Assembly: GCA_905160935.1 (NCBI GenBank)
Contig: CAJHZI010000200.1
Location: forward strand, 391,001-455,000
Length of the DNA stretch: 64,000 bases
Direction of reading: 5' to 3'
Origin: Enchytraeus crypticus
Lineage: Eukaryota > Annelida > Clitellata > Enchytraeida > Enchytraeidae
Below, one piece after another: positions 3,140 to 41,904 of the stretch. Numbering within the stretch: position 1 is the stretch's first letter; every line of letters begins with the position of its first letter. The notes beneath the pieces are model-generated. The model did not search any database, was not told where the DNA came from, and saw only the letters and a program-made list of their open reading frames with translations. The position numbers and the translations under genes were made by a program.

Positions 3140-3678
3140 ATGTACTGATTGAAATGTAAAAGAAAACTGATTCTACACAAATACAGGTGAGGTTGACTGA
3201 TAATAATAGAAAACAGCAATTTTCTATTTGTGGTGTGTGTGGAAGAAAAAAGTCGAGATTCATCTCGACGTTTAATAAGATGTTATCGGTCGTTGGAAAC
3301 ACAGTTGGAGAATTACATTTACCTGCCGGACGTGGAGAGTTTATACCCAACGGATCATTTAGTAATCTCAACAATTATTCATGTTGCGGTCCAGGCACAA
3401 ACTATGAACAGAGAAATCGCGAAGGCTATCTGGGTATAAATGAGTTGGATGGAATATGTAATTTGCACGATCAGTTTTATACTGGAAATCCTGATACTGC
3501 CAGCAGAAATATAAGCGACGAAGCTTTGGCCCATCGAGCATACGAAATTGCGAATGATTCAAGTTTAGATAGTCCGCAAAGAGATATGGCTCAATTTGTT
3601 TGCCACATCATGGAAAGTAAAGTTTGGTCTTGGCGAGTCAAAAAACGTATAGAGTGGTCCAGCGAAGAAAAGGCTTGA
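3140..3678 (+). pseudogene. Zinc ribbon + phospholipase A2 protein pseudogene (copy A)
   Basis: Homologue of the gene at 33476-34006. The third codon after the ATG at 3140 is TGA, where copy B has the first cysteine of the zinc ribbon, so the N-terminus is broken. The PLA2 core remains readable: the CGPGT calcium-loop-like motif and the LHDQFY catalytic His-Asp motif. An indel near the 3' end moves the reading into the -1 frame just before the slippery heptamer at 3640-3646. Confidence 0.85.
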
Positions 3679-3698
3679 GGCAAAACTTTGGACCCTTT
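3640..3698 (+). promoter_or_regulatory. Relic of a -1 ribosomal frameshift cassette between PLA2 and integrase
   Basis: The heptamer AAAAAAC (3640-3646), the stop TAG two codons later in the PLA2 frame (3650-3652), and a stem pairing GGTCCA (3656-3661) with TGGACC (3689-3694) all match the cassette at 33429-33488. One base pair in the middle of the longer stem is lost. Its persistence in a decayed copy suggests that the arrangement was present in the family ancestor. Confidence 0.55.
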
Positions 3699-26377: not shown

Positions 26378-26933
26378 AGTAGTGTAAATATTGGGGGGCT
26401 GGGAAAAAATGAGATTCCAAGGCAATGTTACGCATAAAACCTAGCTAAATTTCCTTTTTAGCCTTGCCCTGCCTTAATTCATCATGTTCACTCAATTAGA
26501 TAAACAATTAAGCATTGTTCAGCCATAAAACCTAGCTAAATTTCCTTTTTAGCCTTGCCCTGCCTTAATTCATCATGTTCACTCAATTAGATAAACAATT
26601 AAGCATTGTTCAGCCTCGAAAATAGCTTATTTATAATTTAGCCTTGATGCTTAAATGTCACAATAAATATTAGGCACAGTCTAGCCTTCATCATAGCTCA
26701 TTTCTATTTTCTGCCTTGAAATCAGTACAATTACTATTGAAGCATAGTTTTGCATATCAATGATTTAACACACAAGCGTAAAAATCAAGCACGTCCACAG
26801 CTCACGAGGACAAAAACGATTTCAATTCACATCATTTCATCCACAAGGCAGAGACAAAATGATTTCAACAGGCATCTTTAGCCTTGATACCTAAGCTTAT
26901 ATCTATATTAGCCTTGTCATCAACGTATGTACT
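26378..26933. repeat. Left terminal inverted repeat, with a private 91-bp tandem duplication
   Basis: Reverse complement of 41440-41904 apart from a tandem repeat of a 91-bp unit (26433-26523, again from 26524) that makes this side 556 bp against 465 bp. Both arms carry repeated AAGGCTA / TAGCCTT motifs. Confidence 0.95.
26433..26614. repeat. 91-bp tandem duplication inside the left TIR
   Basis: Two adjacent copies of the unit that begins CATAAAACCTAGCTAAATTT. The right TIR has one copy. The length difference between TIRs (556 minus 465) equals exactly one unit. Confidence 0.95.
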
Positions 26934-27685
26934 GAAAGTATGATAACCACTCTCCTAGCCTAGCTGTAAACGGTCGGGTAAAAATAACGCAGCTGTTCAG
27001 CTACCTTAAAGTAACTATACATGTATGTAAAAGCCTATACCCGAGGCAGCAGAGTCTACTCTCAGATACTTAGCTTAAATTAACAGCTGAATGTTTATAT
27101 ACTGAGCGCTGTAAAAGCTCTAGTAAAAAAACACAGCTACTCGCTACACAGCTGAGTCTACTCTCAGATTATAGCTTAATTTTTAACAGCTGGATGTTTA
27201 TATACTGAGCGCTGTAAAAAGCTCTAATAAAAAGACACAGCTACTCGATGCCGATGCTCAGATGTTGTAACTCTGTGGAAAGCGAAAGTGAAAAGTCTAT
27301 ACGTGTATATTTCTACAGTATACTTTCCAAAATTCATAAATGTAGTTACTTTATGAAGCAATCAATATATTTACTGTTACCCAAATATCAAATTCATAGG
27401 CAACAAGAAAATAGATCAACTGCCTCCATATGTGGAGGACTTTTAAATCTAGCCATCTTCGCTGTGTCTTACGCTAATGTACGTGGTACACTGAGTTACA
27501 CATCAGCAGCTATAATCTTTTTATTAGACAGCAGAGTATACTCGTGTAGACTCTGCTGCAGCCTACACGTTAAACAGCTGGAAAGTTGAGCTTCAGTAGT
27601 GGAGTGGTACTCATTCCGTGAATAGCAAAAACATAAATATAGAAAAGAAAATGAAAATATAATAAAATTAAAAATATATGAATTT
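26934..27685. other. PolB leader region with a 102-bp tandem repeat
   Basis: Between the left TIR and PolB. Two copies of a 102-bp unit start at 27052 and 27154 (GAGTCTACTCTCAGAT, later TTTATATACTGAGCGCTGTA). AGCTG motifs are frequent. A 113-codon open frame at 27248-27589 has no recognisable domain and is probably chance. The position suits a long leader or a replication/promoter region. Confidence 0.5.
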
Positions 27686-27716
27686 TATTTAAATATTTTT
27701 TCTTATATATAAAATG
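27686..27716 (+). promoter_or_regulatory. Bipartite promoter-like motif of PolB
   Basis: TATTTAAATA (27686-27695) starts 28 bp before the ATG at 27714; TATATATAAA touches the ATG. If the palindromic box is the TATA element, transcription would begin at or just before the start codon. Confidence 0.65.
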
Positions 27717-30700
27717 GAAACTCAAACGGTGAAACAATTGCGACTTGTCGCGAAGCAACGAGGTATTAAAAGATACTATTCTCTTCGCAAGGCAGAGCTT
27801 ACTGATGCGTTGTCATCGACATCACAAACAGGTGGAGTTGTTGATTTGATTAATTCTCCTGTACCAGATATTCAACAACCGATTTTAGTTCCAACTAAAT
27901 ATAAACCATCACCCAAGAGACATTATGACAATTTGCTCGACACACCGGTGCCTGATATAAAAACTGAGATTCTTGCACCAATTAAGACTGGAGTAATGGC
28001 AACTATCAAATCATATTGGGATTGGCTGGTAAGCGATGTACCAAGCAACATTAAAAGCAAAGTAAGAGAATCGTATAAGACACTGAAGTCTAAAGTTGAG
28101 AACATATTCAACAAGTCTAAGGCGGATACGTATGAAATCAAAGAAACAAAATCAGCATTAAAGGGATTCACTAAGCAATATACCATTGATGGTCGAAATG
28201 GAGTGGATGCAGTGTTATTTCTCAATAGCGTTCAGACAAAAGTGTTAAATGTATTAAACAACAACCCTCAGTCAAAAGTTAATCTAATACTCACATGTAC
28301 AATGGAAAGGGTGGATTTAAAGACTGGGGAAATTACATCGTCTGACGCCCCTTTTCTTTCAAAAACTGAAATAATTTTACCATCCACAGATACCGCAGAG
28401 GTGTATGAAAAGACTAAACGTAAAATGCTAGAGTCAATGGCTAATTTTCAGATGCGGGGTAGTAATTGGATATTTCGTAGGGTGATGAAATTAGAAATAA
28501 ATACCGTAGAATACAAGCCACTCCGAGGTAGCTCCTACATTCCACTTCCCGATGATCTAGCTGCTAAAAAGGCTATTATAAATATGAAGAATAAAGACAA
28601 TCAGTGTTTCAAGTGGTGTATAGCTAGAGCCTTCAATCCTGTGGATGAACATCCAGAGAATATAACTAAACTATTAAAAGTACAGGCTGAAAAATTTAAC
28701 TGGAATGGTATTGAGTTTCCGGTTAACTGAAAAATATTGATAGATTTGAAAAGAATAACAATGTATCAATTCATTCTTTTCTTGAAATCCTTAATTCTTT
28801 GGATATGAAAAGCTATGGGTGTGGGGCGAAAAAGAAATAATACCATTAAGGATTTCAACGTTAAGTAGTCAAAACGTAGTAGATTTGTTACTCATATCAG
28901 AAGGTGATAATAATCATTGCTGCTGGATTAAGAACTTCAATAGATTGATGTCAATAGAAGTAAATCACCATGCAATGCATTACTGCAGACAATGCTTAAA
29001 CGGTTTCACAAGTGAAAATGCTCTTAATAATCACACTGAATATTGTTCACAACACGACGCTCAAAAAACTGTGTTACCTGACTCTGGAACGTTTATGAAA
29101 TTCAATCACTACAAAAAATCGATGCGAGTACCATTCATAGTTTACGCAGATTTTGAGTCATTTATTAAACCGATTGATACACGTCAGCCGGATCCAAGCA
29201 GGTCAACCACTATCCGATACCAGAAACATACACCTAGTTCATTCTGTTATTACATCAAGTGTTTTGATGATAGCATTTACTCGCAAGCTCCAGTCACTTT
29301 TACTGCAAAGAATGAGAATGATGATGTTGATCAAATATTCTTTGATACTCTAGAGAAAAATATAAAAGAAATATACAATCAGTTCAAGTTTTCTAAACCA
29401 ATGATATTCGATGAATCTGCAGCGAAGAAATTCAAGGCCGCAAAATCATGTCATATCTGTGAAAAAGAGTTGGGTAACGATCGTGTCAGAGACCACTGTC
29501 ATCTATCTGGCAAATTCCGAGGAGCAGCACACGATAAATGTAATTTACAATACAAAATTCCAAAATTCTTTCCAGTAGTTTTTCACAATTTATCAGGATA
29601 CGACAGTCACTTATTTATAAAGAAGTTGGCAGGTTGACAAATTAATTGTATTCCGTGTAACGAAGAAAAGTACATCAGTTTCTCTAGGGAATTGCTGGTT
29701 GACAAGTTTATAAATAAAACAGGTAAAGAAGTACTAGTGAAACGAGAATTGCGGTTTATCGATAGCTTTAGATTTATGGCTTCGAGTCTTAACAAACTTT
29801 CAAAGAATCTAAGTAAAGATCAGTATAAGAATGTTGCAAGTAAGTATTCTGGAAAGCAATTGGATTTGCTGTTGAGAAAAGGAGTTTACCCGTACGATTA
29901 TGTTAGTTCGTCAGAAAGACTTGATGAAACTAAACTACCGCCAAAGGATGCTTTCTACTCAAAACTTAACGATACCAATATGAGTGATGAAGACTATAAA
30001 CACGCAGAGACTGTTTGGAAAGAGTTTGGTTGTAAAACATTTCGAGACTATCACGACTTGTACAATATATCTGCTGTGCTTTTACTAGCAGATGTCTTTG
30101 AAAATTTTAGAGATGTATGTATGACCCACTATAAATTGGATCCTGCGTGGTACTACACTTCGCCAAGACTAGCTTGGGATGCTGCGTTAAGATTAACTAA
30201 AGTTGAACTCCAATTGTTGAGCGATTCCGATATGCTGCTGATGATTAAGCACGGAATAACAGGTGGTGTAAGCACTATTTCAAACCGATATTCAAAAGCT
30301 AATAATAAATACATGGATGGGAATTTTAACGTTAATGATCCTTCCAAATTTATCAAATACCCTGGATTCGAATAACCTTTATGGCTACTCGATGAGTAAG
30401 CCCCTACCCACACACGGGTTCGAATGGATGACAGAAAAAGAACTGGAGAACTGGAAAGAAATGAAGTGTATCCTCGAAGTTGACTTGGAGTATCCTGCAG
30501 CGCTGCACGATCTCCATAACGACTACCCTTTAGCCCCAGAAATTGTGAAAGTGAATAAAGTAGAGAAATTGATACCGAATTTGAATGATAAAACAAAGTA
30601 CACATTACATTAGAAGAATTTGAAACTGTACGAAAGTATGGGACTGAAAATTACCAAAATACACAGAGGCATAAATTTGAAGAAAGTCCATGGCTTAAAA

Positions 30701-31548
30701 CTTACATCGATTTAAATACACAGCTACGCACTAAGGCTGCCAACGACTTTGAGAAAGATTTCTTTAAACTAATGAACAATAGCGTTTTTGGAAAAATTAT
30801 GGAGAATATTGAAAATAGGATAGATTTCAGATTGGTTGATAATAGAGAAAAGGCTGTTAAATTGGCTGCAAAGCCTTACTATGACCGAACAGTGATATTT
30901 GACGAAAATCTTGTCGGCGTCCACATGAGAAAAACTAAATTGCTGTATAATAAGCCAATCTACCTAGGTATGGCAATATTAGATTTAAGTAAAACTTTAA
31001 TGTACGAATTTCACTATAATTACCTAAAGGAAAAATACAATGATAAAGCCAAGCTGTTGTTTACAGACACGGATTCGTTGATGTACGAAATACAGACGGA
31101 AGATTTTTACGCAGACATATCTAATGACGTCGAACGCAGATTTGACACTAGCGATTATCCGAGAGTTCATCCATCAGGCATTAAGACTGGAGTTAACAAG
31201 AAAGTCATTGGAATGTTTAAAGACGAAGCTTGTGGAAAGGAAATTGAAGAATTTGTTGGATTGAGAGCAAAGTTGTACTCTTACAAATTAGCAGATGAGG
31301 AGCACAAAAAATGTAAAGGTGTCAAGAAGAATGTTGTTGAGAGGACAATAACACATGATGATTACAGAGATTGTCTGTTTGAGAAAAATTACCATTCTAG
31401 AAGCATGAACGTTTCTAGATCACGCTTGCACGATGTCTATACTGAGGAAGTCAATAAAGTTGCTCTCAGCGCAGATGACGATAAGCGAGTAATCATGGAC
31501 GATGGCGTGCACACTCTAGCTTACGGACATTATAGCTTAAATATATAA
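27714..31548 (+). pseudogene. polB: Protein-primed family B DNA polymerase (PolB), broken
   Basis: Would replicate the element from its terminal repeats by protein priming. Order: SAP/Rho-N-like N-terminus (VKQLRLVAKQRGI), a long N-terminal region, a C2HC finger near 28980, exonuclease I FIVYADFES (about 29135), an endonuclease VII-like Cys/His finger (CHICEKEL, about 29450), and exonuclease II NLSGYDSHLF (about 29590). Then come exonuclease III (DLYNISAVLLLADVF), motif A DSNNLYG (30363), motif B NNSVFGK (30775) and motif C TDTDS (31073). Lesions: a frameshifted, duplicated stretch after the TGA at 28728-28730, an in-frame TGA at 29635-29637, a frameshift before motif A (about 30357), and a TAG with further shifts at 30611-30700. 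All catalytic motifs survive, so decay is recent. Confidence 0.93.
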
Positions 31549-31629
31549 AACATATTTTTATGGATAAAGTTTGCCCCCCTCGTGAGGGGGGCGGACATTA
31601 TAGCTTAAATATATAAAACATATTTTTAT
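31524..31629. repeat. 38-bp direct repeats around a GC-rich hairpin at the PolB 3' end
   Basis: 31524-31561 is repeated at 31592-31629 and separated by 30 bp. Across the joint is a perfect hairpin GCCCCCCT-CGTG-AGGGGGGC (31573-31592), strikingly GC-rich for this locus. The PolB stop lies in the first repeat. It looks like a small tandem duplication plus a hairpin insertion, or a transcription end signal. Confidence 0.8.
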
Positions 31630-31632
31630 TAA

Positions 31633-31662
31633 TATTTTCAAACCACATTTGGTTTGAAAATA
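31633..31662 (-). terminator. Perfect stem-loop after the stop of small gene copy 1
   Basis: A 13-bp stem TATTTTCAAACCA / TGGTTTGAAAATA with loop CATT, beginning 6 bp past the stop codon of the gene at 31668-32005. It sits between two convergent genes, where a shared 3'-end signal would be useful. Confidence 0.6.
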
Positions 31663-31667
31663 ATTCA

Positions 31668-32005
31668 TTAAAACCAAGCAACTTTAGGATCATCTTTGTC
31701 TGTATTAAACCCATCAATCTCTGCATATAGATTTCCTGTGAATTTTCCGGAATTGATTTTTCTTACTGTAAACTCAAATCTTTTAGGCTTCTTGTCCAAA
31801 TTCTCCTCTTTAATGTATTCATTAATCTTATTTGTAGACCAAACTTTTATATGATCGTCATCCTCGTTTTGCACAACATACAGAATATATGATTTATCTT
31901 TACCGAATTTTGTGTCTATAGATTTCAGTCCTTTGACAATATATCTTTCTCCAGCATGAAGATTTTGAAACTTGAGTACTTCCGAGTTGCGTTTTTAGTT
32001 GCCAT
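31668..32005 (-). pseudogene. Small beta-rich protein, duplicate 1, frameshifted
   Basis: The upstream duplicate's sister. The ATG at 32003-32005 is followed by MATKNAT, then a 1-nt loss relative to duplicate 2 shifts the frame. The correct frame resumes, open from 31874, as VWSTNKINEYIKEE and KRFEFTVRKINSGKFTGNLY. The coding halves have diverged more than the identical upstream regions, so gene conversion or differing selection is possible. Function unknown; the alternating beta pattern could be an OB-fold, which would suit a single-strand DNA-binding role, but this is a guess. Confidence 0.75.
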
Positions 32006-32034
32006 TTTATATAGTCTAAGAAAATATTTAAATA
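32003..32034 (-). promoter_or_regulatory. Bipartite promoter-like motif, small gene duplicate 1
   Basis: TATTTAAATA at 32025-32034, 29 bp from the ATG, plus TATATAAA touching the ATG. Upstream sequence is almost identical to that of duplicate 2. Confidence 0.6.
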
Positions 32035-32093
32035 GAAATTTTTATGAATCTAAATTTTCTAAATTAGATACTGGAATCCATATTTTTTATTAA

Positions 32094-32123
32094 TATTTTC
32101 AAACCAAATGTGGTTTGGAAATA
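32094..32123 (-). terminator. Stem-loop after the stop of small gene copy 2
   Basis: A 13-bp stem with one G-U pair, arms TATTTTCAAACCA and TGGTTTGGAAATA, loop AATG, beginning 8 bp past the stop codon. Same sequence logic as 31633-31662 with a different loop. Confidence 0.6.
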
Positions 32124-32131
32124 ATTAACCT

Positions 32132-32461
32132 TTATAGCCAGACACACCCAATATCCAGACTGTATGTATTGAAACCATAAATATCTGCCCACAACTTTCC
32201 TTCATATTTTCCTTCAGTGATTTTTCTTACTGTAAATTCAAATCTTTTAGGGTTTGCTCCCACCTCTCTCTCTATATATTCATTTATAGTTTTTGTAGAC
32301 CATACCTTTACAGGGGTAGCATCCTCATTTTGTATAACGTGTAAAATAAACGATGGTTCTAATTTTTCATTTACTTCCTTAAATCCTTTTACAATATATC
32401 TATCTCCAGCGTTAAGGTCTTGAAACTTGAGTATTTCCGAGTTTGCGTTTTTAGTTGCCAT
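32132..32461 (-). CDS. Small beta-rich protein, duplicate 2 (109 residues)
   Basis: Intact copy of a Polinton-borne family whose function I do not recognise. Residues 10-26 read LKFQDLNAGDRYIVKGF, followed by FILHVIQNEDATPVKVWST, INEYIEREVGANPKRFEFTV and KYEGKLWADIYGF. The pattern of short alternating hydrophobic strands, acidic turns and no cysteine pairs resembles an OB-fold. As the genes have the same promoter-like box as PolB, a replication role such as single-strand DNA binding is an inference worth testing. The start codon is fixed by the conserved TATATAAAATG context. It lies between duplicate 1 and the integrase, all on the minus strand. Confidence 0.8.
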   Translation of the reverse strand: MATKNANSEILKFQDLNAGDRYIVKGFKEVNEKLEPSFILHVIQNEDATPVKVWSTKTINEYIEREVGANPKRFEFTVRKITEGKYEGKLWADIYGFNTYSLDIGCVWL

Positions 32462-32490
32462 TTTATATAGTCCAAGAAAATATTTAAATA
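32459..32490 (-). promoter_or_regulatory. Bipartite promoter-like motif, small gene duplicate 2
   Basis: TATTTAAATA at 32481-32490, 29 bp from the ATG (32459-32461), with TATATAAA touching the ATG. Confidence 0.65.
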
Positions 32491-32591
32491 GAAATTTTTA
32501 TGAATCTAAATTTTCTAAATTAGATACAGGAATCCATTCATTAAATTTCTTGTTGTAACCCACCCATTTAACCAAGGCATGTTCCACACCT

Positions 32592-33482
32592 TTAATCTTT
32601 TTCCCATAAAACCTTCTCAATTCTATAATTTTCTTGATTTGTTTTCTGCAATTCTTCAGCATAGAAACCTCCTTCTATCTCTTCGCCTAACGAATCTGTC
32701 AATTTATAAGTGATCGGGAATGTGTATTGCACTTTGGATATCTTGTACACCGCTTCAGACCAATTGGGTAGGAATCCCTTTTCAAATACACCCTTAATCC
32801 GACTAATTCTAACTCTATCGCCAACCTCAAATTTTCGATTCGTTTCCAAATTTCTATACTTCCTACTGTTAATTATAAATGCTTCGTTTTCCTTTTTACT
32901 CGCCTCAATTGGAGTCATTTTTACAGTCGAATGTTTCGTGTTGTTATACTCTGCAATTAAATCGTCAATCATATCAATCCAATTTCTCGTATTTTCCGCA
33001 GTAAATCTTTTCCACATCTTTTCCTTGATACTTCTATTGAATCGTTCGACGACTGCTGATTTATGTTCACCAAATGTAGAGTATCTATTGATATCAAGTT
33101 TCTTTAACCAATCATCCAAGTTTTTGTTGTAAAATTCCTTACCCTGATCAACCCATAAATGTTTAGGCTGTCTTCCCGACGATGACACTATTTGTTTAAA
33201 TGCCTCTGCAGTTGTTTCACCTCTCTTGTCTTTCAACGGAATGCTCCACGCATACTTGGAAAACACATCAATGACGTTAAGCATGTATCTGTAGCCCTTA
33301 TTTACTCTACTCCACTCCTGCATTTCGATTAAATCTGCTCCCCATATCTCATCAACTTCAAACACGTGAACTTGTCGTCTTGTAAATTTTCTGCGAATCG
33401 GTTTGTGTAATTCTCTAGCCAATTCTTCAAAGGGTCCAATGTTTCGCTTCAAACCTCTTTCTTCGCTGGACCCCTCTATTCG
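32592..33482 (-). CDS. int: Polinton integrase, reached by -1 frameshift from the PLA2 gene
   Basis: Retroviral-type DDE integrase that would insert the element and make the 6-bp duplication. From the residue after the slip it is about 296 codons long and ends at 32592. Counting from the TTG at 33452, the triad is Asp40 (WGADLIEM), Asp102 (WVDQGKEF) and Glu136 (SAVVERFNR), a D-x33-E spacing. The C-terminal part with VGDRVRISRIKGVFEKGF and a chromo/SH3-like beta region is complete. No ATG precedes the first catalytic Asp: the frame opens at the TGA at about 33500 and the first Met is residue 44. The only obvious route of expression is a -1 shift at 33482-33488 from the PLA2 gene, giving a fusion of about 471 residues. 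All catalytic residues are intact. A non-AUG start is the alternative. Confidence 0.9.
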   Translation of the reverse strand, partial: RIEGSSEERGLKRNIGPFEELARELHKPIRRKFTRRQVHVFEVDEIWGADLIEMQEWSRVNKGYRYMLNVIDVFSKYAWSIPLKDKRGETTAEAFKQIVSSSGRQPKHLWVDQGKEFYNKNLDDWLKKLDINRYSTFGEHKSAVVERFNRSIKEKMWKRFTAENTRNWIDMIDDLIAEYNNTKHSTVKMTPIEASKKENEAFIINSRKYRNLETNRKFEVGDRVRISRIKGVFEKGFLPNWSEAVYKISKVQYTFPITYKLTDSLGEEIEGGFYAEELQKTNQENYRIEKVLWEKD

Positions 33483-33488
33483 TTTTTT
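33429..33488 (-). promoter_or_regulatory. -1 ribosomal frameshift cassette, PLA2 to integrase
   Basis: The slippery heptamer A AAA AAC (33488 down to 33482) is in register with the PLA2 frame (TCA AAA AAC). A 5-nt spacer is followed by a stem-loop: GAGGGGTCCA (33476-33467) pairs with TGGACCCTTT (33438-33429), 10 bp including two G-U pairs, with a 28-nt loop. The PLA2 stop TAG (33478-33476) abuts the stem. The -1 frame is the integrase frame. Heptamer, stop and six pairs of the stem are conserved in copy A at 3640-3698. Confidence 0.7.
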
Positions 33489-34006
33489 GACTCAACATCA
33501 AGACCAAACTTTGCCTTATTTTTCATGATGTGGTATACAAATCGAGCCATATTTCTTTGTGCACTATCAAATCTTGAATCATTAGCAATTTCGTATGCTC
33601 GATGAGCCAAAGCTTCGTCGCTTATATTTCTGCTCGCTGTATCGGTATTTGCAGTATAAAACTGGTCGTGCAATTTACACATTCCATCCAACTCATTTAT
33701 ACCCTGATAACCTTCGCGATTTCTCAGTTCGTACTTTGTGCCTGGACCGCAGTACGAATACTTGTTGAGATTATTAAATGAACCGTTAGGTACGTACTCT
33801 CCACGTCTGGCAGGTAAATGTAGTTCTCCAACTGTATTTCCAACTGCCGATAACACATTATTAAACACACCCTGACCCGAGACAAATTTTGACTTTTTAC
33901 TTCCACACACTCCACAAATAGCAAATTGCTGTTTTCTATTATTAGCAGTTAACCTTTCCTGCGTCTGTGTAGAATCAGTTTTCCTTTTACATTTCAAGCA
34001 GTACAT
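33476..34006 (-). CDS. Zinc ribbon + phospholipase A2-like virion protein
   Basis: 176 residues. N-terminal zinc ribbon with Cys3, Cys6, Cys31 and Cys34 (YCLKCKRKT ... CGVCGSKK), similar to small viral zinc-ribbon domains. The second domain is phospholipase A2-like: YCGPGT at 85-90 resembles the calcium loop and KLHDQFY places the His113-Asp114 catalytic pair; Asp130 may complete it. Parvovirus-type capsid PLA2 domains act in escape from the endosome, so a role in membrane crossing by a virus-like particle is a reasonable inference. Adjacent to the capsid gene and upstream of the integrase in the -1 frame. Intact here, broken in copy A. Confidence 0.88.
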   Translation of the reverse strand: MYCLKCKRKTDSTQTQERLTANNRKQQFAICGVCGSKKSKFVSGQGVFNNVLSAVGNTVGELHLPARRGEYVPNGSFNNLNKYSYCGPGTKYELRNREGYQGINELDGMCKLHDQFYTANTDTASRNISDEALAHRAYEIANDSRFDSAQRNMARFVYHIMKNKAKFGLDVESKNE

Positions 34007-34059
34007 TTTTAAATTACATTATAAAATTTTATAACATAATTTTCATATTAGAAAACTTA

Positions 34060-35457
34060 TTAATCTATAATAATCGGAGTCTGACCATCGGATGTTAGGT
34101 ACATCACTCTATCGGAAAGTATCGTAACATACATATGAGTATGTTCTGGAACATTTTGACTAAATTTAAAATTAAGTTTCATATTCATAACATCAGTTTT
34201 GATTCTTTCACTCTGATGTCTTACATCAAAGACTACAAGTGGAAATAGCTTTTTGTAATTCATCATATCGATCTGTGTACCTCCAATTAAATGATTAAAA
34301 CCAAAGTGTTCCTTCTTAAATTCATCTGCCATAGCGCAGAAATCTACATAGTCATTTGTAGCAAAGTTTATTCTCGGTTCATCTGCAGGATATCTCTGAT
34401 CATTCAATTCAACAAAAGCACTAGTCAAGTTAAGGTGATCAAACACAGCTGGATTTTGTTCCTGTGTTCTTGATTTGTCAGTTTGAAATCCAACAATTAT
34501 CCATCTAGGCTTTTTACTTCCAGCGTCTCTATTGATCATCCATTCAAATTCCTGCACGTTGTGCGTAACTGTAGTATGTTGGTCAGTTCTTCTGCTAAAA
34601 CTTATTGGAATTTTCCTTTTACTTACAACAGACTCTCGCAGTGAAGTTATCATTTCAACTGACGGTTTTATTCTTGGTACCATCCACCTAATATCCGTTA
34701 GTGAAACTTTACCTTCAAAAACGTTATTCGCTTTATGAATAGCCGAATTATTAATCACTCTAGTGAGTCGCAACGTATGACGCAAATTGTAAAGTACTTT
34801 GTTATAATCGGAAAATCCAAATAGATGCGAAAATGGAATGTTGAATGAAAATTGACCTGGCGCATCGTTGTTCATTAGAAGTTGTCGGCGAATCGCAAAT
34901 CCTTCATTGTAATCTGGATTTTCTTGCGGTGTAAAATGATTGGCAACAATGGCTGCGCCTCCTGCAACTGCTGGAGATTGTCTATATTTAGAGGACACTG
35001 CACCGACATTTGTGTCCTTTCTCCAACATTGATTCAATCCCGCGCTGCTATTGAAATCGTCAGGATAAGACAAATAACCCAACATTGACGTAGTCTGTCC
35101 TGGAATGTGTAATTATTCAATTAATTTACCTCCTAGATCGATACCTCTTTTCTAGTATTGACTAGAAAAGAGGTATGGAATAGCATTATTAATCAAAGCT
35201 ATTTGAGCTGTTGCATCAAAGGCGGCGGCATCGTTATTATCAATTCTTAGGATTCTTCCCTTAATTTTAAGAAAGCTCTTAGATATGTTGTAATACGAAT
35301 CACTTGCAGGTATATCAATTTCAATAACACTAGGGCTATCATTAAAACCAGCTTTAGTCTGTGGAATAAAAGACGAGTATTGACAACTTTCTACACTATT
35401 GTCAACAATTATTGACGATGGTTGTGTGAAAATTTCGTTTGGCACTTCAGTTTCCAT
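34060..35457 (-). pseudogene. Double-jelly-roll-like major capsid protein, broken by a palindrome
   Basis: About 440 codons with the start at 35457 in the TATATATAAAATGGAAACTG context. N-terminal 100 residues (35152-35457) include AGFNDSPSVIEIDIPASDSY; the rest (34060-35085) includes LGYLSYPDDFNSSAGL, FNIPFSHLFGFSDYNKVLY and RTQEQNPAVFDHLNLTSAFV, a family annotated in many invertebrate genomes and assigned to the double-jelly-roll capsid fold. Between 35085 and 35176 a perfect palindrome (35141-35176) plus nearby changes create stops and shift the frame. Everything on both sides is open, so this is the only lesion seen. It belongs to the structural block with the penton-like protein. Confidence 0.85.
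35141..35176. repeat. Perfect 16-bp palindrome inside the capsid gene
   Basis: ATACCTCTTTTCTAGT, loop ATTG, then the exact reverse complement. Copy A has ordinary coding sequence at this point, so the palindrome is a private mutation, consistent with replication template switching. Confidence 0.9.
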
Positions 35458-35777
35458 TTTATATATATTATAATAATTTTTAAACTAAAATCTTTTAATC
35501 CGCTGCCCTTTTTCAATTGTTCTAGTATCTGTTCCGATTCTGGAGTTAGACGACTATTTTTGTTTTTTTCGTTTGCTATCTTTCTAATGAGTGCTTTACT
35601 AGCCTCTGTCATTCCGAATGCAGCGATATCACCTACTGCTCCTAGCATTGGTTTTGCAATTAAATCTTTATTCTGATAGACGTACGAACCGATACCTTTC
35701 AGTGTATCGACAAATCCCCGTCCATGTACCAGAGTTCGTTTTGAACGGTATGCTTTGCATTTCTCTTTGACAATCAT
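35409..35777 (-). CDS. Small basic virion-associated protein
   Basis: Begins at the ATG at 35775-35777 (MIVKEKCKAYRSKRTL), preferred over an ATG five codons upstream because copy A conserves this one. Basic N-terminus, GRGFVDTLKGIGSYV, then a weakly hydrophobic stretch (AKPMLGAVGDIAAFG) and a charged C-terminus. The frame runs 48 nt past the capsid start codon; copy A instead stops just before it, so the present tail after KDFS is probably a recent 1-nt frameshift. Function unrecognised; size and composition recall small adenovirus-like core or cement proteins, without sequence proof. Confidence 0.7.
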   Translation of the reverse strand: MIVKEKCKAYRSKRTLVHGRGFVDTLKGIGSYVYQNKDLIAKPMLGAVGDIAAFGMTEASKALIRKIANEKNKNSRLTPESEQILEQLKKGSGLKDFSLKIIIIYIKWKLKCQTKFSHNHRQ

Positions 35778-35804
35778 TTTTACTAAATACAATATATTTT
35801 TTAA

Positions 35805-36539
35805 TTAGATTTTTTCCCTAATTAGTAATACTACAGTAAGTCTTTCACCCATCAGATCGATAAGTTTGTTGTCTTGATCGGTCAGCCGCAGTTTTATACT
35901 ATCAATTTCATCTCTGTGAACTATTGGTAAAAATATCAATTCAGGAGTAGGATTCTCTATGATTTTATAGCCTGGATTTACTCTCTGTGTGAATGTATGT
36001 ATCACATTAGATTTATTGCTATTAAGATAGTTCCCAGTAGCAATATTGCAATGGACTTGTATCGAATTGACTTTTTCTATATCTATTATATTTGGAGATT
36101 GATGAATTCCTTGTGATAAGCAGGCGTTTTCATTGGTGAAGCCAAGAGTAGGCCCTATTGAATTTTCCAGTCCGAAATCAACCATGTACTTTTCATCTGA
36201 TATAGTCAAAATTGTCTTGAAAATTAAATGACTTATGTTTATATAATATTTTTCATTAATTGCATCGTAGTCGCCGTTTTCTCGCATTTCTCTTTGAATC
36301 GTAGCGTTAATATCTTTTAATTCGTAAGCACCTTTTGAAAGCGTGATTATTTTCCAAGTACTTCCACCGTCGGTGGAATATTTAAATTTATTGTTTGCTT
36401 CCGTGATGTTAGGAATTGAATTGTACGTCATCAGAGATATAAATGCTACTTCGTACTTTCTTTCGCGCTCCAATCTTATTGGAGGATGCAGATATGTAGT
36501 AAAATCTGTTGTATTGCTCGATAGAGTTAATTTCGCCAT
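35805..36539 (-). CDS. Penton-like minor capsid protein
   Basis: 244 residues, intact. The sequence RKYEVAFISLMTYNSIPNI near residue 28, then GAYELKDINATIQREM, VNSIQVHCNIATGNYLN and NPGYKIIENPTPELIFLPI follow the pattern of the Polinton minor capsid protein, predicted to form a single jelly roll occupying the vertices. The neighbours are the AT-hook coiled-coil gene upstream and the small basic protein and capsid downstream. Preceded by a TTTAAAAATTTAAT box and TATAAAAAATG rather than the exact replication-class box. No homologue remains in copy A because of the internal deletion. Confidence 0.8.
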   Translation of the reverse strand: MAKLTLSSNTTDFTTYLHPPIRLERERKYEVAFISLMTYNSIPNITEANNKFKYSTDGGSTWKIITLSKGAYELKDINATIQREMRENGDYDAINEKYYINISHLIFKTILTISDEKYMVDFGLENSIGPTLGFTNENACLSQGIHQSPNIIDIEKVNSIQVHCNIATGNYLNSNKSNVIHTFTQRVNPGYKIIENPTPELIFLPIVHRDEIDSIKLRLTDQDNKLIDLMGERLTVVLLIREKI

Positions 36540-36575
36540 TTTTTATAGCAGGATTAAATTTTTAAATTGGATATT

Positions 36576-37433
36576 TTAGAGAACTTCGAAATGGTTTTTA
36601 TATATATCATCGTATAACCCTTTGGTGATTACTCTAATTTTTAATAACTCATCCAAAATGCTAACTGCGGTATTATACACTCCATTATTTCCAGCATCTA
36701 GAACCGCAATATTTTCATTCAATAGACGAACCAATTGATCTGGGCTTTCATAAACTATAACCTGGTCTGTTTTAGGCCTGCCTCTACCACGCTTTTGTTT
36801 TCTGACAGGCATTACAAGTTTTCTCTTCTTCTTCTTAAGTCCTTCTCCGACGAGTTCACTCCCTGCTTTTACCCTAGTTAATATATTCTTGTAGTTTTCC
36901 AGTGTTTTCTGTTGAGACTCGCATATCGTTTTCTCAGCTGGAGTCTTTTTACTGTTGTTTCCTAAAAACTGCCCTATTCGTCTATTATGCGTTTGAATCT
37001 CCTTTAATGTTGCTTCAATTTCATTATTTTCATAGACTTCACTTGGAAGTTTCAGGTTGAGCAGATCTAGATTCTCTCGATCGCTTTCATTGAGATTCTT
37101 GTCTAAATTAATAATTACAGGATCCCTCCTTGGTGTGGATTCTCGTTCAGGAATTGGGGAATCATAAAATGGCATTGCCTGTATAGCCTCTCTTTGATCA
37201 TTTGAACGCATCAATTGATTAGTAAAGGGAACTAAAATATCACTCAAGTTTTGCTTGTTGTCGACAATCTTTTGTTCTAGAATTTGAGCCGTTTCCCTCG
37301 TAGTATCAATTAACGGTTTGAATAATTTTGCTTGGCTCTCATATGACTGTTGATTGTCAAGCATGTCATTCCGGAACATGTGTTTGATTTCATTCTTGGC
37401 TTTTATAAACCGGTTAATGTCAAACTCCTTCAT
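36576..37433 (-). CDS. AT-hook coiled-coil structural-block protein (285 residues)
   Basis: A family repeatedly found in Polintons, of unknown function. Residues 1-150 are helix- and charge-rich with likely coiled coil (NNEIEATLKEIQTHNRRIGQF). A basic patch KKKKRKLVMPVRKQKRGRGRPK near 200-222 contains an AT-hook core RGRGRPK and may also serve as a nuclear localisation signal. The C-terminus VYESPDQLVRLLNENIAVLD followed by NNGVYNTAVSILDELL is the most conserved part. Located between ATPase and penton, so a role in DNA condensation or packaging inside the particle is possible. Confidence 0.8.
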   Translation of the reverse strand: MKEFDINRFIKAKNEIKHMFRNDMLDNQQSYESQAKLFKPLIDTTRETAQILEQKIVDNKQNLSDILVPFTNQLMRSNDQREAIQAMPFYDSPIPERESTPRRDPVIINLDKNLNESDRENLDLLNLKLPSEVYENNEIEATLKEIQTHNRRIGQFLGNNSKKTPAEKTICESQQKTLENYKNILTRVKAGSELVGEGLKKKKRKLVMPVRKQKRGRGRPKTDQVIVYESPDQLVRLLNENIAVLDAGNNGVYNTAVSILDELLKIRVITKGLYDDIYKNHFEVL

Positions 37434-37440
37434 CTTTTAT

Positions 37441-37550
37441 TAGACACATAAAATTGTTTATTATGTATTTTTATGTATTTTTAGGTATTATTACGTATTT
37501 TTATGTATTTTTAGGTATTATTATGTATTATTATGTATTTTTTAGGTACT
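37441..37550. repeat. Tandem repeat between ATPase and AT-hook gene
   Basis: Three drifting units of about 28 bp built from TATGTATTTTTAGGTATTAT. It overlaps the last codons of the ATPase gene. Confidence 0.75.
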
Positions 37551-38250
37551 GTTCAGGTATGTAAATTACATTATAATTTAAAATATAGCGACCACATTCA
37601 GGTTCTAACCAAAGATTTATAACAACGAAACCATGCTTTCTTGTCCACGCTTCCTTACATTTTCTTTTAAACTCTTGAAACGTCATATCACCGCTTACGT
37701 GTGTATCATAGAAATATTTCAACGTCTTCTCATCTTGATGAAACAATATAAAAATATTTGCATTTTGACGTATGCCGTGCTTCTTCAATTGATGTACGCT
37801 CTGACATAGGTAGAATACATTTTCATTATTGTGTCTACCTTGACAAAAATAATCAGTCATGACTTTCTGATCTTCATTCATAACGTCATCAAAAATTACA
37901 ACGTGAGTCTTATTTCTATCGAGTTGAGATGGGTGAACAATTTCCTCGTCAGGATTGTGAAAAGTAACAATATCATTATTTGTTTTAAATTTCTTTTTTG
38001 ATTCATCATTGCAAAGTCTAAGATATTCGTATGCGTCTTGATATGACGTCGTTGTGTATACCATTATATTATTGTAATACACGAATTTGCCCATTATAAA
38101 ATCCATCATTAACTTAGTTTTACCACATCCACTACTACCTGCTATTATCATTCTTATATGTGTAGGAAATATGTCGTGATGTTTCTTTTCGTAGCTTGTG
38201 CCAATAATTTCCTGATACTTTTTTGAATAATCAATACCCGAGTCTACCAT
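37531..38250 (-). CDS. A32-like genome-packaging ATPase
   Basis: 239 residues, intact. Walker A is GSSGCGKT at residues 38-45 and Walker B is VVIFDD at 117-122, with a following sensor-like region (FYLCQSVHQLKKHGIRQNAN). This is the FtsK/HerA-type ATPase shared by Polintons and related DNA viruses, expected to pump the element's DNA into the capsid. The start ATG follows TAATACATAAAA and lies 17 bp from the protease stop. Its presence with capsid genes is strong evidence for a particle-forming ancestor. Confidence 0.93.
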   Translation of the reverse strand: MVDSGIDYSKKYQEIIGTSYEKKHHDIFPTHIRMIIAGSSGCGKTKLMMDFIMGKFVYYNNIMVYTTTSYQDAYEYLRLCNDESKKKFKTNNDIVTFHNPDEEIVHPSQLDRNKTHVVIFDDVMNEDQKVMTDYFCQGRHNNENVFYLCQSVHQLKKHGIRQNANIFILFHQDEKTLKYFYDTHVSGDMTFQEFKRKCKEAWTRKHGFVVINLWLEPECGRYILNYNVIYIPEQYLKNT

Positions 38251-38266
38251 TTTTATGTATTAGTTA

Positions 38267-38722
38267 TTATTTTAAATTGTTTCTCTCGTATAATTCATTT
38301 AATATATCGGTAAATTTAGATCCATTATTTAGTTTATAAAACACGTAAATGCAGTAATGACCGCAGATGACTTCGTTCGGAGCTTGAATTTTGAATGTGT
38401 TGTAATAATTTTCTTTTCCTTTACAATAATTCTGAACTTCCAAAGGAGGCACAAAACCGTAGCTGTCAAAATATAAACATTTACCATCATTACTACACAA
38501 AGATGTCCAATGTGTTCCGTCTCCGAAGCTGTCGTCAATATTAAGAATTAGACATTCGTTATTATTTATTGATCGTTTCAATTCATCACGCATGCATACA
38601 CCTTTGAAATTTGGAATTTTTAGCTGTTTGCATTTTTCTATAATATCAAAGTTACTTAGCGGTTTGATGGTTTTGAATGATTTTAGAAATTGGGGGAAGT
38701 TTATGCCTCCCCCTGTCTTTCT
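38267..38722 (-). CDS. Adenain-like cysteine protease, reached by -1 frameshift from the PX gene
   Basis: Ulp1/adenovirus-type maturation protease. Counting from the only ATG (38591-38593), the triad is His28 (GDGTHW), Asp43 (YFDSYG) and Cys77 (CGHYC), with Gln70 as the likely oxyanion residue. Conserved-looking sequence (IKPLSNFDIIEKC and IPNFKGV) lies upstream of that ATG in the same frame, which stays open back through the PX slippery site without another ATG. Expression as a -1 frameshift fusion to PX (about 184 + 151 residues) is the simplest reading; internal initiation would give a shortened enzyme. Expected role: cleavage of virion precursor proteins. Confidence 0.88.
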   Translation of the reverse strand, partial: RKTGGGINFPQFLKSFKTIKPLSNFDIIEKCKQLKIPNFKGVCMRDELKRSINNNECLILNIDDSFGDGTHWTSLCSNDGKCLYFDSYGFVPPLEVQNYCKGKENYYNTFKIQAPNEVICGHYCIYVFYKLNNGSKFTDILNELYERNNLK

Positions 38723-38728
38723 AAAAAA
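38692..38728 (-). promoter_or_regulatory. -1 ribosomal frameshift cassette, PX to protease
   Basis: The slippery heptamer T TTT TTA (38728 down to 38722) is in register with the PX frame (GTT TTT TTA). An 8-nt spacer GAAAGACA is followed by an 8-bp stem GGGGGAGG / CTTCCCCC (one G-U) with loop CATAAA (38705-38700). The PX stop TAA lies across the loop. The -1 frame is open from here through the protease. Matches the classic retroviral gag-pro layout. Confidence 0.7.
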
Positions 38729-39273
38729 ACTCCTGATCCGCCTCTTTCCAAATACAATCCATTACCCCACTGAGCTCCTTTCAAATTCTTGACGCATCCA
38801 CCGAGTCCAAATTTCTTCAACGCATTTGATAGCGTTTTACCTATAACGGGGATTGGAGCTATTGCGTCGCTGATTAAGCCTGCGCCGAGTTGTTGCTTGG
38901 TTATGTTTTCCAATTCTTGATTATGTCTCTTCAATTCATTTGTCTGTCTAGTCGAATTCACTGCCGAGCTAATTCCACCTGCCAATCCACCTATAGCTCC
39001 CACGATGGCGGGAATGGCTGCTGCCAACAACGGCAAAAATCCTCCATTCTTTTTCATGTACTTTAATTGTGCTATGCTCAGACACAATTCTATTCCTGAC
39101 GTAGCTTTTTTTATTTTGTTAATTTGAGTTTGGGTTAGAGGAAGATTCGTATTACCCGATAAATTCCTTTTTGATATTCGTATTGTAACCTCTCCATCAA
39201 GATCGCACGCTCTCTTTAGTTTTTGGACCTGACCTTTAGTCAACGTTACACCATAGCTTGTATACTTTGACAT
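38701..39273 (-). CDS. PX-like virion protein (190 residues)
   Basis: Family found in most animal Polintons. N-terminus SKYTSYGVTLTKGQVQKL, then NLPLTQTQINKIKKATSG, a hydrophobic, Ala/Gly-rich membrane-active-looking segment (FLPLLAAAIPAIVGAIGGL) near residues 80-105, and a glycine-rich C-terminal tail with GLYLERGGSGVFLERQG. Often compared with adenovirus minor proteins; the exact function is unknown. The Gly-containing tail sites would suit cleavage by the adjacent protease, but that is inference. The start follows TTATATAAAAATG. Divergent from the fibre-like gene across 54 bp. Confidence 0.82.
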   Translation of the reverse strand: MSKYTSYGVTLTKGQVQKLKRACDLDGEVTIRISKRNLSGNTNLPLTQTQINKIKKATSGIELCLSIAQLKYMKKNGGFLPLLAAAIPAIVGAIGGLAGGISSAVNSTRQTNELKRHNQELENITKQQLGAGLISDAIAPIPVIGKTLSNALKKFGLGGCVKNLKGAQWGNGLYLERGGSGVFLERQGEA

Positions 39274-39327
39274 TTTTATATAACATTTAAATTTTTATTA
39301 TAAACTTTTATCTTATGTATTTAAAAT
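39274..39327. promoter_or_regulatory. Divergent promoter region between PX and fibre-like genes
   Basis: Only 54 bp separate two start codons. It contains ATTTAAAT and, on each side, TATATAAAA before the PX ATG and TATTTAAAATATG at the fibre-like start. No exact TATTTAAATA box. Confidence 0.5.
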
Positions 39328-40323
39328 ATGAGTGCTATATCGAAAACTGGTGGCAAATCGCATGCAACTGAAGATGATAATAGGGCAGTTGATGCTAAAA
39401 TGTTTGTGATGAATAAACTTGTTGAAGGTAAAATATCTGAGATGAATAAGCTTATTGAAACTAAAGTTAACAAAGCAGGTGCTGACATGCTAGGAAGTCT
39501 AAATATGAATAACAATCGTATAACTAATGTTAAACACCCTCCTGAAAATGATGTGGATGTTGTCACAAAGGTGTACTGCGACCGCTATGTTAACGAATTT
39601 GGTGATAATTTGAAAGTAGACATCCTAAAAGAAGTAGAACAAAACGTAGTTGCTAATGACATTGCTTTACAAAAAAATATTGATACGAAACTCAGTGTGA
39701 ATGGTGGTTCAATGAACGGAGATTTAGATATGAAGCATAATTTAATTTTTAATGTCGGTTTCCCTAGTGAACCATATGACGTGGTAAACAAAAAGTATCT
39801 ACAGATTGCTCGCATGAAAGATAATGTTGATTTGAAGAAATTAATGGCTATTTGTTCTCATGTATTGACCATTATATCAAAATATTCCAGAGAACAAGGC
39901 CTACGAATTAATTACAGTGAAATATTTCTTAGGAGATATAATCATTTGGAAAATCTTACCTTAGAATATAGTAAATTATATGATAGTGAAGAAATATATT
40001 CTGACGTTCTTTCAATTTATATGACTAATTTGAAATATTTACTTATTTCAGTAATTGAAGAATTACCGAGAAATATTTTTATGGATTTGAATATGTATCT
40101 AGCTCGTGCTAAATTAATAGCAATACCTGAAGACGGTACACCCTTATTGAAAATGAGGAAATTTATTACAAGACTTGTAAGAGATCGAAACCCAGATCGA
40201 AAGAATTTAAACTTGGAATTAATATTACGAAAAAATTTAATGTTTGTTGATTTAGGATTTCTTTACGTTTCTGATTCTCTGTTAAAGCAGTTTGTGATGA
40301 CACCCGCATTGGTTTCTGGATGA
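39328..40323 (+). CDS. Fibre- or spike-like protein with phage-tail-fibre-type repeats (331 residues)
   Basis: Two shaft-type repeats are visible: LGSLNMNNNRITNVKHPPEN, then VDVVTKVYCDRYV at residues 54-87, and MNGDLDMKHNLIFNV, then PSEPYDVVNKKYL near 129-157. The pattern Gly-x-hydrophobic-Asp/Asn-Met-x2-Asn-x-Ile-x-Asn-Val, then x5-Asp-hydrophobic2-x-Lys-x-Tyr is well known from trimeric beta fibres of phage tails. Before them is a short helical N-terminus; after them a 165-residue helical C-terminus with no similarity I recognise. A particle attachment fibre is the inferred role. Encoded opposite to the structural block. Confidence 0.7.
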   Translation: MSAISKTGGKSHATEDDNRAVDAKMFVMNKLVEGKISEMNKLIETKVNKAGADMLGSLNMNNNRITNVKHPPENDVDVVTKVYCDRYVNEFGDNLKVDILKEVEQNVVANDIALQKNIDTKLSVNGGSMNGDLDMKHNLIFNVGFPSEPYDVVNKKYLQIARMKDNVDLKKLMAICSHVLTIISKYSREQGLRINYSEIFLRRYNHLENLTLEYSKLYDSEEIYSDVLSIYMTNLKYLLISVIEELPRNIFMDLNMYLARAKLIAIPEDGTPLLKMRKFITRLVRDRNPDRKNLNLELILRKNLMFVDLGFLYVSDSLLKQFVMTPALVSG

Positions 40324-40359
40324 GATATTTAAATTCGTTAATAAATGTATTAACAAATT

Positions 40360-40800
40360 TTATGTGAATTCAGAAATAATCTGATTATAGGCTGCCTCGG
40401 TAAGATTTCCGTTGCAACTGACAACAAAATCAAATCTTTCGTTAAGTTTATTTAGTTTTTCAATTTCTGCATTTAGTTTATTACTTTTAGCTTGAAAATT
40501 AAATTTATTGGCAAAGGCTGTCAATATACCGCTTGAAGTGGATAACACTATTATAGCAACGGGTGGAATTACAACAGCTGTAGCAGTTGCAGCTAGCACT
40601 GCGGAAATTACGATCGAAGCTACCGCGGTAGTGTAGGAAAGTGTTTTTACAATCTTTCGCTTTTTCTTTAGTTTTTTAACAACTGTTTGCCTTTCTTCAA
40701 GCTTTCTAATTAAAAATGCTTTCAGTTTACTTGAAAGCGTAGTACCATCAACGGTGTCTAACATTTTATTATTTGCAATTATTATTTTAACATCAAACAT
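40360..40800 (-). CDS. Small membrane protein with two hydrophobic helices
   Basis: 146 residues, or 134 from Met13, where family members usually start (MLDTVDGTTLSSKLKAFLIR). A basic coiled segment KKLKKKRKIVK precedes two hydrophobic stretches (SIVISAVLAATATAVV and IPPVAIIVLSTSSGIL, about residues 58-95). A second coiled coil NKLNAEIEKLNKLNERF and a conserved end VVSCNGNLTEAAYNQIISEF follow. I know this family only as a Polinton-linked protein without known function. It could sit in a membrane or form a helical hairpin in the particle. Confidence 0.72.
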   Translation of the reverse strand: MFDVKIIIANNKMLDTVDGTTLSSKLKAFLIRKLEERQTVVKKLKKKRKIVKTLSYTTAVASIVISAVLAATATAVVIPPVAIIVLSTSSGILTAFANKFNFQAKSNKLNAEIEKLNKLNERFDFVVSCNGNLTEAAYNQIISEFT

Positions 40801-40847
40801 TTACAAACGAGAAAATTATTTGTTTATTGTTTGTAAATTTTGAATTT

Positions 40848-40879
40848 TATTTAAATATTTTTCCTATATATATAAAATG
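40848..40879 (+). promoter_or_regulatory. Bipartite promoter-like motif of the terminal AT-hook gene
   Basis: TATTTAAATA at 40848-40857 starts 29 bp before the ATG at 40877; TATATATATAAA touches the ATG. Confidence 0.65.
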
Positions 40880-41470
40880 AAATACTCAGCCGCCGAATTG
40901 AGACAAATGTTGATCGATGCTGAAATCACACCAGCTCTACGTGCTGGAAAAACAGAGTTGTTGTTTATGACTTTTGAAAATGGACTTCTGAAGAGAGAAG
41001 TGTTTCCTCCAAAGGATGAAGATACGACAACAAGAAAGAGAGGAAGACCTAGAAAATATTCACTAAAAGAGGTTGATCCACAAAATGCAGAAGACAAACA
41101 TAGAAGAGAAAGAGGAAGACCAAGAAAATATCCACTAAAAGAGGTTCAACCAAAAAAGATTATAGACCCGAGGCATGAGTACTTGAGAGGTATAAGAAAT
41201 AACCCTAGACCTGTCAGATATGAAAATAATGATACTGGAGAAGTTAAAGAATTTAAGTCTTTATATGAAGCTGTTAAAAAACTAAGCGCAGTATATTATT
41301 CTTTACAAGAAACAATGGAAAGATTGTTAATGGATGTCATAAATTTACAATCATTAAATGAATGTTTCAATAGTATATTTACTATTAAGACAGGCTGTGA
41401 CCATAATTGTGCTGATGAAACAATGGTTATTATACTTTTAGTACATACGTTGATGACAAGGCTAATATAG
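40877..41470 (+). CDS. SAP-like, double AT-hook protein at the right end
   Basis: The N-terminus YSAAELRQMLIDAEITPALR followed by AGKTELL resembles a SAP-type DNA-binding helix pair, and two AT-hooks follow (RKRGRPRKY near 55, RERGRPRKY near 77). A domain with RNNPRPVRYENNDTGEVKEF and FKSLYEAVKKL, similar to short motifs seen in several Polinton proteins, comes next. After about residue 135 the sequence looks unrelated to that domain and the last ten codons lie in the TIR, so the C-terminus is probably frameshifted or eroded. Possible chromatin-tethering or terminal-repeat-binding function; shares the PolB-type promoter box. Confidence 0.65.
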   Translation: MKYSAAELRQMLIDAEITPALRAGKTELLFMTFENGLLKREVFPPKDEDTTTRKRGRPRKYSLKEVDPQNAEDKHRRERGRPRKYPLKEVQPKKIIDPRHEYLRGIRNNPRPVRYENNDTGEVKEFKSLYEAVKKLSAVYYSLQETMERLLMDVINLQSLNECFNSIFTIKTGCDHNCADETMVIILLVHTLMTRLI

Positions 41471-41904
41471 ATATAAGCTTAGGTATCAAGGCTAAAGATG
41501 CCTGTTGAAATCATTTTGTCTCTGCCTTGTGGATGAAATGATGTGAATTGAAATCGTTTTTGTCCTCGTGAGCTGTGGACGTGCTTGATTTTTACGCTTG
41601 TGTGTTAAATCATTGATATGCAAAACTATGCTTCAATAGTAATTGTACTGATTTCAAGGCAGAAAATAGAAATGAGCTATGATGAAGGCTAGACTGTGCC
41701 TAATATTTATTGTGACATTTAAGCATCAAGGCTAAATTATAAATAAGCTATTTTCGAGGCTGAACAATGCTTAATTGTTTATCTAATTGAGTGAACATGA
41801 TGAATTAAGGCAGGGCAAGGCTAAAAAGGAAATTTAGCTAGGTTTTATGCGTAACATTGCCTTGGAATCTCATTTTTTCCCAGCCCCCCAATATTTACAC
41901 TACT
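41440..41904. repeat. Right terminal inverted repeat of the complete Polinton
   Basis: 465 bp, the reverse complement of the left TIR except for the 91-bp duplication. Contains about seven AAGGCTA/AAGGCA-type words at irregular spacing. Ends CAATATTTACACTACT at 41904. Confidence 0.96.

Follow-up and report, generated by a model that had tools for sequence, protein, structure and literature searches.

Element B and its PLA2–integrase junction

The window analysed here, a stretch of 64,000 nucleotides from the annelid Enchytraeus crypticus (contig CAJHZI010000200.1, positions 391,001 to 455,000), contains a Polinton-like element, denoted element B, whose approximate bounds (26378..41904) are set by inverted repeats (26378-26949 and 41424-41904) of nearly identical sequence (99.5% identity over 426 bp and 100% over 147 bp). 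Family searches identify on the minus strand of element B a DUF5679 and PLA2-like protein, an rve integrase, a double-jelly-roll (DJR) capsid protein and an A32-like ATPase. The integrase, the capsid protein, the ATPase and the terminal inverted repeats are all features by which Polinton/Maverick elements are recognized. The PolB region (27693-31548) consists of interrupted ORFs; two of its four pieces were scanned, with matches to Rho_N and Endonuclease_7 that are both under the cut-off, and a DTDS motif was found by eye in the fourth piece.

The DUF5679 zinc-ribbon and PLA2-like ORF extends on the minus strand over 33476..34006, from the first Met to a TAG, and matches the DUF5679 (E=2.2e-9) and Phospholip_A2_4 (E=5.4e-7) profiles. 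Its 3' end reads GAG TCA AAA AAC GAA TAG, and thus contains, in the PLA2 frame as TCA AAA AAC, the slippery heptamer A AAA AAC (33482..33488, minus strand). The heptamer is followed, on the same strand, by the 5-nt spacer GAATA (33477..33481), which is of the same length in the second family described below, and by a stem with the 5' arm GAGGGGTCCA (33467..33476) and the 3' arm TGGACCCTTT (33429..33438), both of which are apparent from direct reading and alignment and form 10 pairs, G-U included. The TAG (33476..33478, minus strand), which ends PLA2 absent a shift, abuts the stem such that its G is base 1 of the stem.

The rve integrase ORF (32592..33491, minus strand; rve E=4.4e-13) is in the -1 frame relative to PLA2 and, on direct reading, includes no AUG ahead of the first catalytic Asp. 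A chromodomain, which many relatives possess, was not called in this ORF. A TGA that closes the -1 frame lies 3 nt upstream of the heptamer (33492..33494, minus strand), and because the integrase ORF opens directly after it, the overlap between the zero and -1 frames is merely 16 nt long and encompasses A AAA AAC. Direct reading thus bore out the initial description of the junction, derived from the letters of the window alone (hereafter, the sequence-only reading), namely, the in-frame TCA AAA AAC, the 5-nt spacer, the 10-bp stem, the abutting TAG and an integrase in the -1 frame devoid of an early Met. The junction displays the traits of programmed -1 ribosomal frameshifting (PRF): a zero-frame X XXY YYZ heptamer within the two-frame overlap, a structure at 5 nt, within the range of about 5-9 nt downstream of the heptamer, and a conserved -1 ORF that evolves under purifying selection and lacks a start of its own. 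Heptamers of this form occur in frame 19 times among the 3586 codon positions of the element ORFs, and A AAA AAC twice; the arrangement at the junction is more than chance, as it recurs in many copies and in two old families. A further in-frame A AAA AAC is found in a small ORF of element B (35409-35804, minus strand).

The window also contains copy A, a decayed relative with 83-88% identity to element B in the main blocks, in which the sequence-only reading had the heptamer, the stop and the stem all preserved. At the nucleotide level, this is the case: on the plus strand, direct reading, and alignment for the heptamer, locate the heptamer at 3640..3646, the TAG at 3650..3652, and the stem arms at 3652..3661 (5' arm, one mismatch) and 3689..3698 (3' arm). 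The PLA2 frame of copy A (ORF 3160-3678) was displaced by upstream deletions, so that the TAG survives as nucleotides outside the PLA2 frame.

A second -1 overlap (38680-38761, minus strand), with T TTT TTA and a hairpin, joins a minor-capsid-like ORF (39294-38701, minus strand) to an ORF that reads as protease-like (38761-38267, minus strand). T TTT TTA followed by the hairpin GGGGGAG/CTTCCCCC is present in the window and in L074, and T TTT TTA also in L069 and L071; there is no canonical in-frame heptamer at this overlap in L070, L073 and L076, and in L075 the stop comes earlier. Hence, the earlier claim of two cassettes in one element is supported for the family of the window, with the second being less uniform than the first.

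The junction across the Enchytraeus genome

We surveyed the junction in the genome to which the window belongs (524 Mb, 802 contigs). The first 60 loci came from 150 listed rve matches, mostly by a profile range resembling that of the window, and this choice among the best matches biases the set to intact copies. AAAAAAC is present at the junction in 53 of the 60 loci, including L011, which belongs to a distant family and has it in another context, and L059, a natural in-frame fusion. In 41 of these 53 loci, both ORFs are long (at least 165 codons from Met for PLA2 and at least 310 codons past the heptamer for the integrase), so the heptamer is conserved in intact copies, as the sequence-only reading implied. 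The seven loci without the heptamer are L009, L022, L027, L041, L043, L053 and L060; L035 and L067 merely fall outside the position range of the heptamer scan and are not among the seven.

A search with the PLA2 protein yielded at least 150 matches in the same genome, with 77-100% identity, and from those listed a second set of 60 junctions was drawn, mostly with identity of 95% or less. The heptamer is found in 51 of them, preceded by TCA in 50 and by GCA in one, and in all 51 a zero-frame stop follows within 0-10 codons (one codon in 40). The -1 frame is free of stops over the approximately 90 codons read in 32 of the 51. The remaining nine junctions (L084, L087, L096, L102, L103, L109, L116, L122 and L124) lack the heptamer.

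Two old families are distinguished among the loci. Within family I, 15 loci share an identical 80-base junction, and so do 19 loci of family II; the arrangement therefore belonged to elements that multiplied recently. In most family II loci, PLA2 is 67-75% identical to that of the window, and synonymous divergence between the two families has reached saturation: three pairs have pS 0.78-0.86 and pN 0.09-0.20 (over 67 codons in the PLA2 comparison of family I, because PLA2 of L028 is damaged). Despite this saturation, the heptamer, the frame relation, the 5-nt spacer and the stem are common to both families. The codon before AAA AAC varies in single family II loci (ACA in L037, GAA in L040, GCA in L013), always with the A kept. 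Wherever both genes can be read at a family I or II locus, the integrase occupies the -1 frame relative to PLA2, with the exceptions of L043 and L059, in which later changes happen to bring the two genes into one frame. The integrases compared, in pairs from families I and II, all lack a Met before the catalytic Asp. A distant family (L009, L011 and L022; about 48-49% identity in the integrase and 30-35% in PLA2) has junctions with A runs of varying length, no GPFE and no stem.

The arms of the stem persist across loops of different lengths: the loop comprises 6 nt in family II and 16, 28 and up to 37 nt elsewhere. The family II stems read GGGGUC/GACCCC, GGGGUC/GGCCCC and GGGGCC/GGCCCC, and that of L010 reads GGGUCC/GGACCC. 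We examined pairing within each family and in two further alignments. A6 (59 rows, of which 52 are distinct) combines all 51 heptamer junctions of the second set, six additional rows from family II and the two copies in the window, and A5 has 25 rows, with junctions that have a damaged 3' arm and near-duplicates left out; the nine second-set junctions without the heptamer are in neither. In A6, 97.1% of the cells are paired versus 94.9% after shuffling (reached in 0/500 shuffles) and at most 74.9% after sliding, and seven cells are doubly changed (0/500 shuffles), although, because rows from one genome are related, these cells are not independent events. The doubly changed pairs number two, a count matched by 81/500 shuffles in A6 and 181/500 in A5; family II alone has two such pairs, reached by 14/500 shuffles and by no slid alignment, and in family I by itself (10 rows) double changes are absent. 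The covariation that the sequence-only reading proposed to test is thus apparent as compensatory changes across lineages of this genome and absent within family I. The arms encode protein in both frames, and coding may partly account for their conservation.

Folding of eight chosen hairpin stretches gives z scores from -6.0 to -2.4. The window stem, at z -1.3 with wider flanks and -2.4 without them, is not extreme by itself, and the stem of copy A reaches z -0.6 with wider flanks. The junction has no Rfam match at gathering scores. By eye, no H-type pseudoknot was recognized beyond a single candidate in the window (GGUUUG/CAAACC); the GGUUUG loop becomes GGCUUG in L081, L121 and others with CAAACC unchanged. 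Pairing of the family I loop with the HKP codons was considered as a pseudoknot and rejected because the loop letters vary without compensation.

Split and fused genes among public proteins

Beyond this genome, the evidence is at the level of proteins, among them 120 PLA2 homologues listed of 541. In 106 of these 120, the motif xKN, readable as NNA AAA AAC, follows FGLG near the C-terminal end; counting the first xKN past FGLG, x is S in 93 proteins, T in four, P in three, L in two, and A, K, I and Q in one each, and each of these residues has an NNA codon. In P0130, P0132 and P0180, a second xKN (SKN, SKN and PKN, respectively) comes after the first and is the likelier site. The 14 proteins that do not match the pattern include three with SKQ, two that end before the site, and P0234, which has PKN. 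The three with SKQ in place of SKN are P0148, P0163 and P0195, in which a shift signal, if any, would differ. With P0234 included (107 rows), the stop comes 0-16 codons after xKN, most commonly 9 (45 rows), 0 (20) or 5 (19).

The tail past xKN is mostly L/V/S-K-K/R-G-P-M-K-K-K, and the nucleotides of such a tail would read in the -1 frame as LKEGSNEER of P0009. We accordingly do not count P0009 as an in-frame relative with SKN retained: its LKEGSNEER would be the -1 reading of the common tail LKKGPMKK, and the protein is probably a frameshift-tolerant gene call. In P0152, the zero frame runs to LDPLKN, presumably the zero-frame reading of the integrase GPFEE. In P0134 and P0179, the zero frame continues to LGPLKN and LDPSKN, respectively, the spacer being short and the 5' stem arm absent (in P0134, as read from the protein, KN is kept and the arm is missing); the stem is therefore perhaps not universal.

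Fusions of the zinc ribbon, PLA2 and integrase, for which the sequence-only reading proposed to search, do exist and take the form of single in-frame ORFs. Such DUF5679-PLA2-integrase proteins are common, with integrase identity of 59-68% for most, and 37 of 38 lack KN at the junction, the exception being P0064 with QKN; P0009, P0052, P0066 and P0100, long proteins that depart from the junction pattern, are outside the 38. Taken with the 106 of 120 PLA2 proteins that have xKN, this indicates that the genes are split with the motif and fused without it, with few exceptions. The fused PLA2 parts (37 rows) map to one change on the PLA2 tree, on a branch with 0% support, so that a single origin of the fusion is not established. 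Five PLA2/integrase protein pairs, matched by eye on the equal length of their longest contigs, among them P0163, which lacks KN, are suggestive only. Searches of viral contigs, genome contigs and phages confirmed no relatives.

Explanations of the junction and comparison with known systems

By far the likeliest explanation is -1 programmed ribosomal frameshifting: very probably, the junction is a cassette that makes a zinc-ribbon-PLA2-integrase protein. The sequence of the site, the frame relation, conservation, double changes in the stem, the long ORFs, purifying selection and the fusions in kin are all consistent with this explanation, and from them we infer shifting in translation, its efficiency and a PLA2-integrase fusion that acts as the integrase. 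Most ribosomes would translate the zinc-ribbon/PLA2 protein and terminate a few codons past A AAA AAC. The hairpin, 5 nt further on, would make a minority of ribosomes pause, slip back by one base and read on into the integrase, yielding the zinc-ribbon-PLA2-integrase protein; the shift would be the sole route to an integrase with the full catalytic core.

The A run at heptamer-bearing junctions of families I and II (six A, and seven in L040) brings to mind transcriptional slippage, whereby RNA polymerase would add an A within the run and the altered mRNA would encode the fusion. Six A are few for a cellular polymerase to slip on, and slippage requires neither the C after the run, nor the 5-nt spacer, nor the hairpin, all of which are conserved as well; we therefore consider this mechanism improbable.

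Even less probable, in our estimation, is that one base was lost from the A run of a source element, splitting a PLA2-integrase gene that was ancestrally in frame, with the dead junction then inherited by copies that obtained their enzymes from elsewhere. The in-frame fusions in kin fit such a history, a single lesion could be common to copies A and B, and in the window PolB is interrupted and the integrase ORF is without a chromodomain. Against this, both ORFs are long in 41 of 53 loci (although the selection of loci favours intact copies), and in one family II pair (L014 and L015) PLA2 has a dN/dS of 0.065 and the integrase one of 0.106, with purifying selection on both ORFs seen across old lineages. 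Moreover, a dead junction would hardly be the same in two families whose synonymous sites are saturated, accumulate double changes in its stem, and leave the same motif in 106 of the 120 listed public PLA2 proteins (of 541). The contention of the sequence-only reading that the integrase is preceded by a -1 frameshift cassette rather than by random lesions is well supported.

Two further scenarios are barely tenable. Splicing could join PLA2 and the integrase, but nothing that favours it was found, and in family II only 35 nt separate the conserved FGLG of PLA2 from DPFEQL of the integrase, which is too short for a usual intron and leaves little room for one. The integrase could have its own start, at a non-AUG codon or via reinitiation, as might be surmised from P0001, a 99%-identical protein that the gene caller starts at the residue encoded by TTG in the window (the codon in P0001 presumably being the same), and from P0101, which has an early Met; but there is no AUG near the PLA2 stop, the called starts vary among proteins (V, L, late M) with no common near-cognate codon, and the heptamer and stem would be left unexplained. 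Among 37 stand-alone integrases, from a source that apparently prints first codons literally, the first residue is V or L in 24, a Met no earlier than the catalytic Asp in 12, and an earlier Met in one (P0101). Among these 37, an early integrase Met, which would have spoken against the sequence-only reading, is limited to P0101, and a spliced junction, which would have done so as well, is unlikely in family II.

If ribosomal frameshifting indeed operates here, it would account for annotated starts at non-AUG codons or past the first catalytic Asp in many integrases of this lineage (36 of 37), and predicts that these annotations are truncated. To judge by the in-frame fusions, PLA2-integrase may be a working form of the enzyme. 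By analogy with Gag-Pol, our guess is that the fusion is packaged with the capsid proteins, which would offer a possible route of the Polinton integrase into the virion, joined to the PLA2-like protein. Somewhat more speculatively, and with rather less than even confidence, we propose that Polintons of this lineage follow a retrovirus-like plan, in which two -1 shifts, from PLA2 to the integrase and from the minor capsid protein to the protease, would produce fusion enzymes in low abundance, carried into the capsid by structural or entry proteins, with the first shift hard-wired as an in-frame fusion in some kin.

The gene set of rve integrase, PLA2 and DJR capsid protein is that of Polinton/Maverick elements and adintoviruses (PMC5803895, PMC3671162, PMC11071296, in the parts consulted). 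The Maverick PLA2 ORF, named CAP, adjoins other Maverick ORFs, and PLA2 and INT are given as ORFs, with no frameshift link between the two mentioned in the consulted parts of that paper (PMC5803895). For adintoviruses, -1 sites are suggested, in the consulted parts of the respective paper, for the penton and hexon-protease ORFs only (PMC11071296), and the parts of PMC3671162 and PMC12567637 consulted contain nothing on a PLA2-integrase frameshift. Among the open papers listed in our searches, none reports such a frameshift in Polintons in its title or abstract; frameshifting is well known, and, as far as our searches reach, its proposed use between PLA2 and the integrase in Polintons is new.

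The in-frame DUF5679-PLA2-integrase proteins have the same domain order as the predicted product of the junction and differ in being encoded by one continuous ORF, with KN absent in 37 of 38. Retroviruses produce their enzymes through gag-pro and gag-pol -1 frameshifting, and A AAA AAC is the gag-pro heptamer of MMTV and HTLV. Like the retroviral sites, the junction of element B combines this heptamer with a short spacer, a downstream stem and a stop past the site, and an rve-type integrase would be reached via the shift. Unlike in retroviruses, the downstream structure is a hairpin, with no conserved pseudoknot found, the upstream protein is a zinc-ribbon PLA2 instead of Gag, and the bearer is a DNA transposon or dsDNA virus-like element. 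If the proposed frameshifting is real, a eukaryotic integrating dsDNA element sets the dose of its integrase by means of the retroviral Gag-Pol heptamer and logic.
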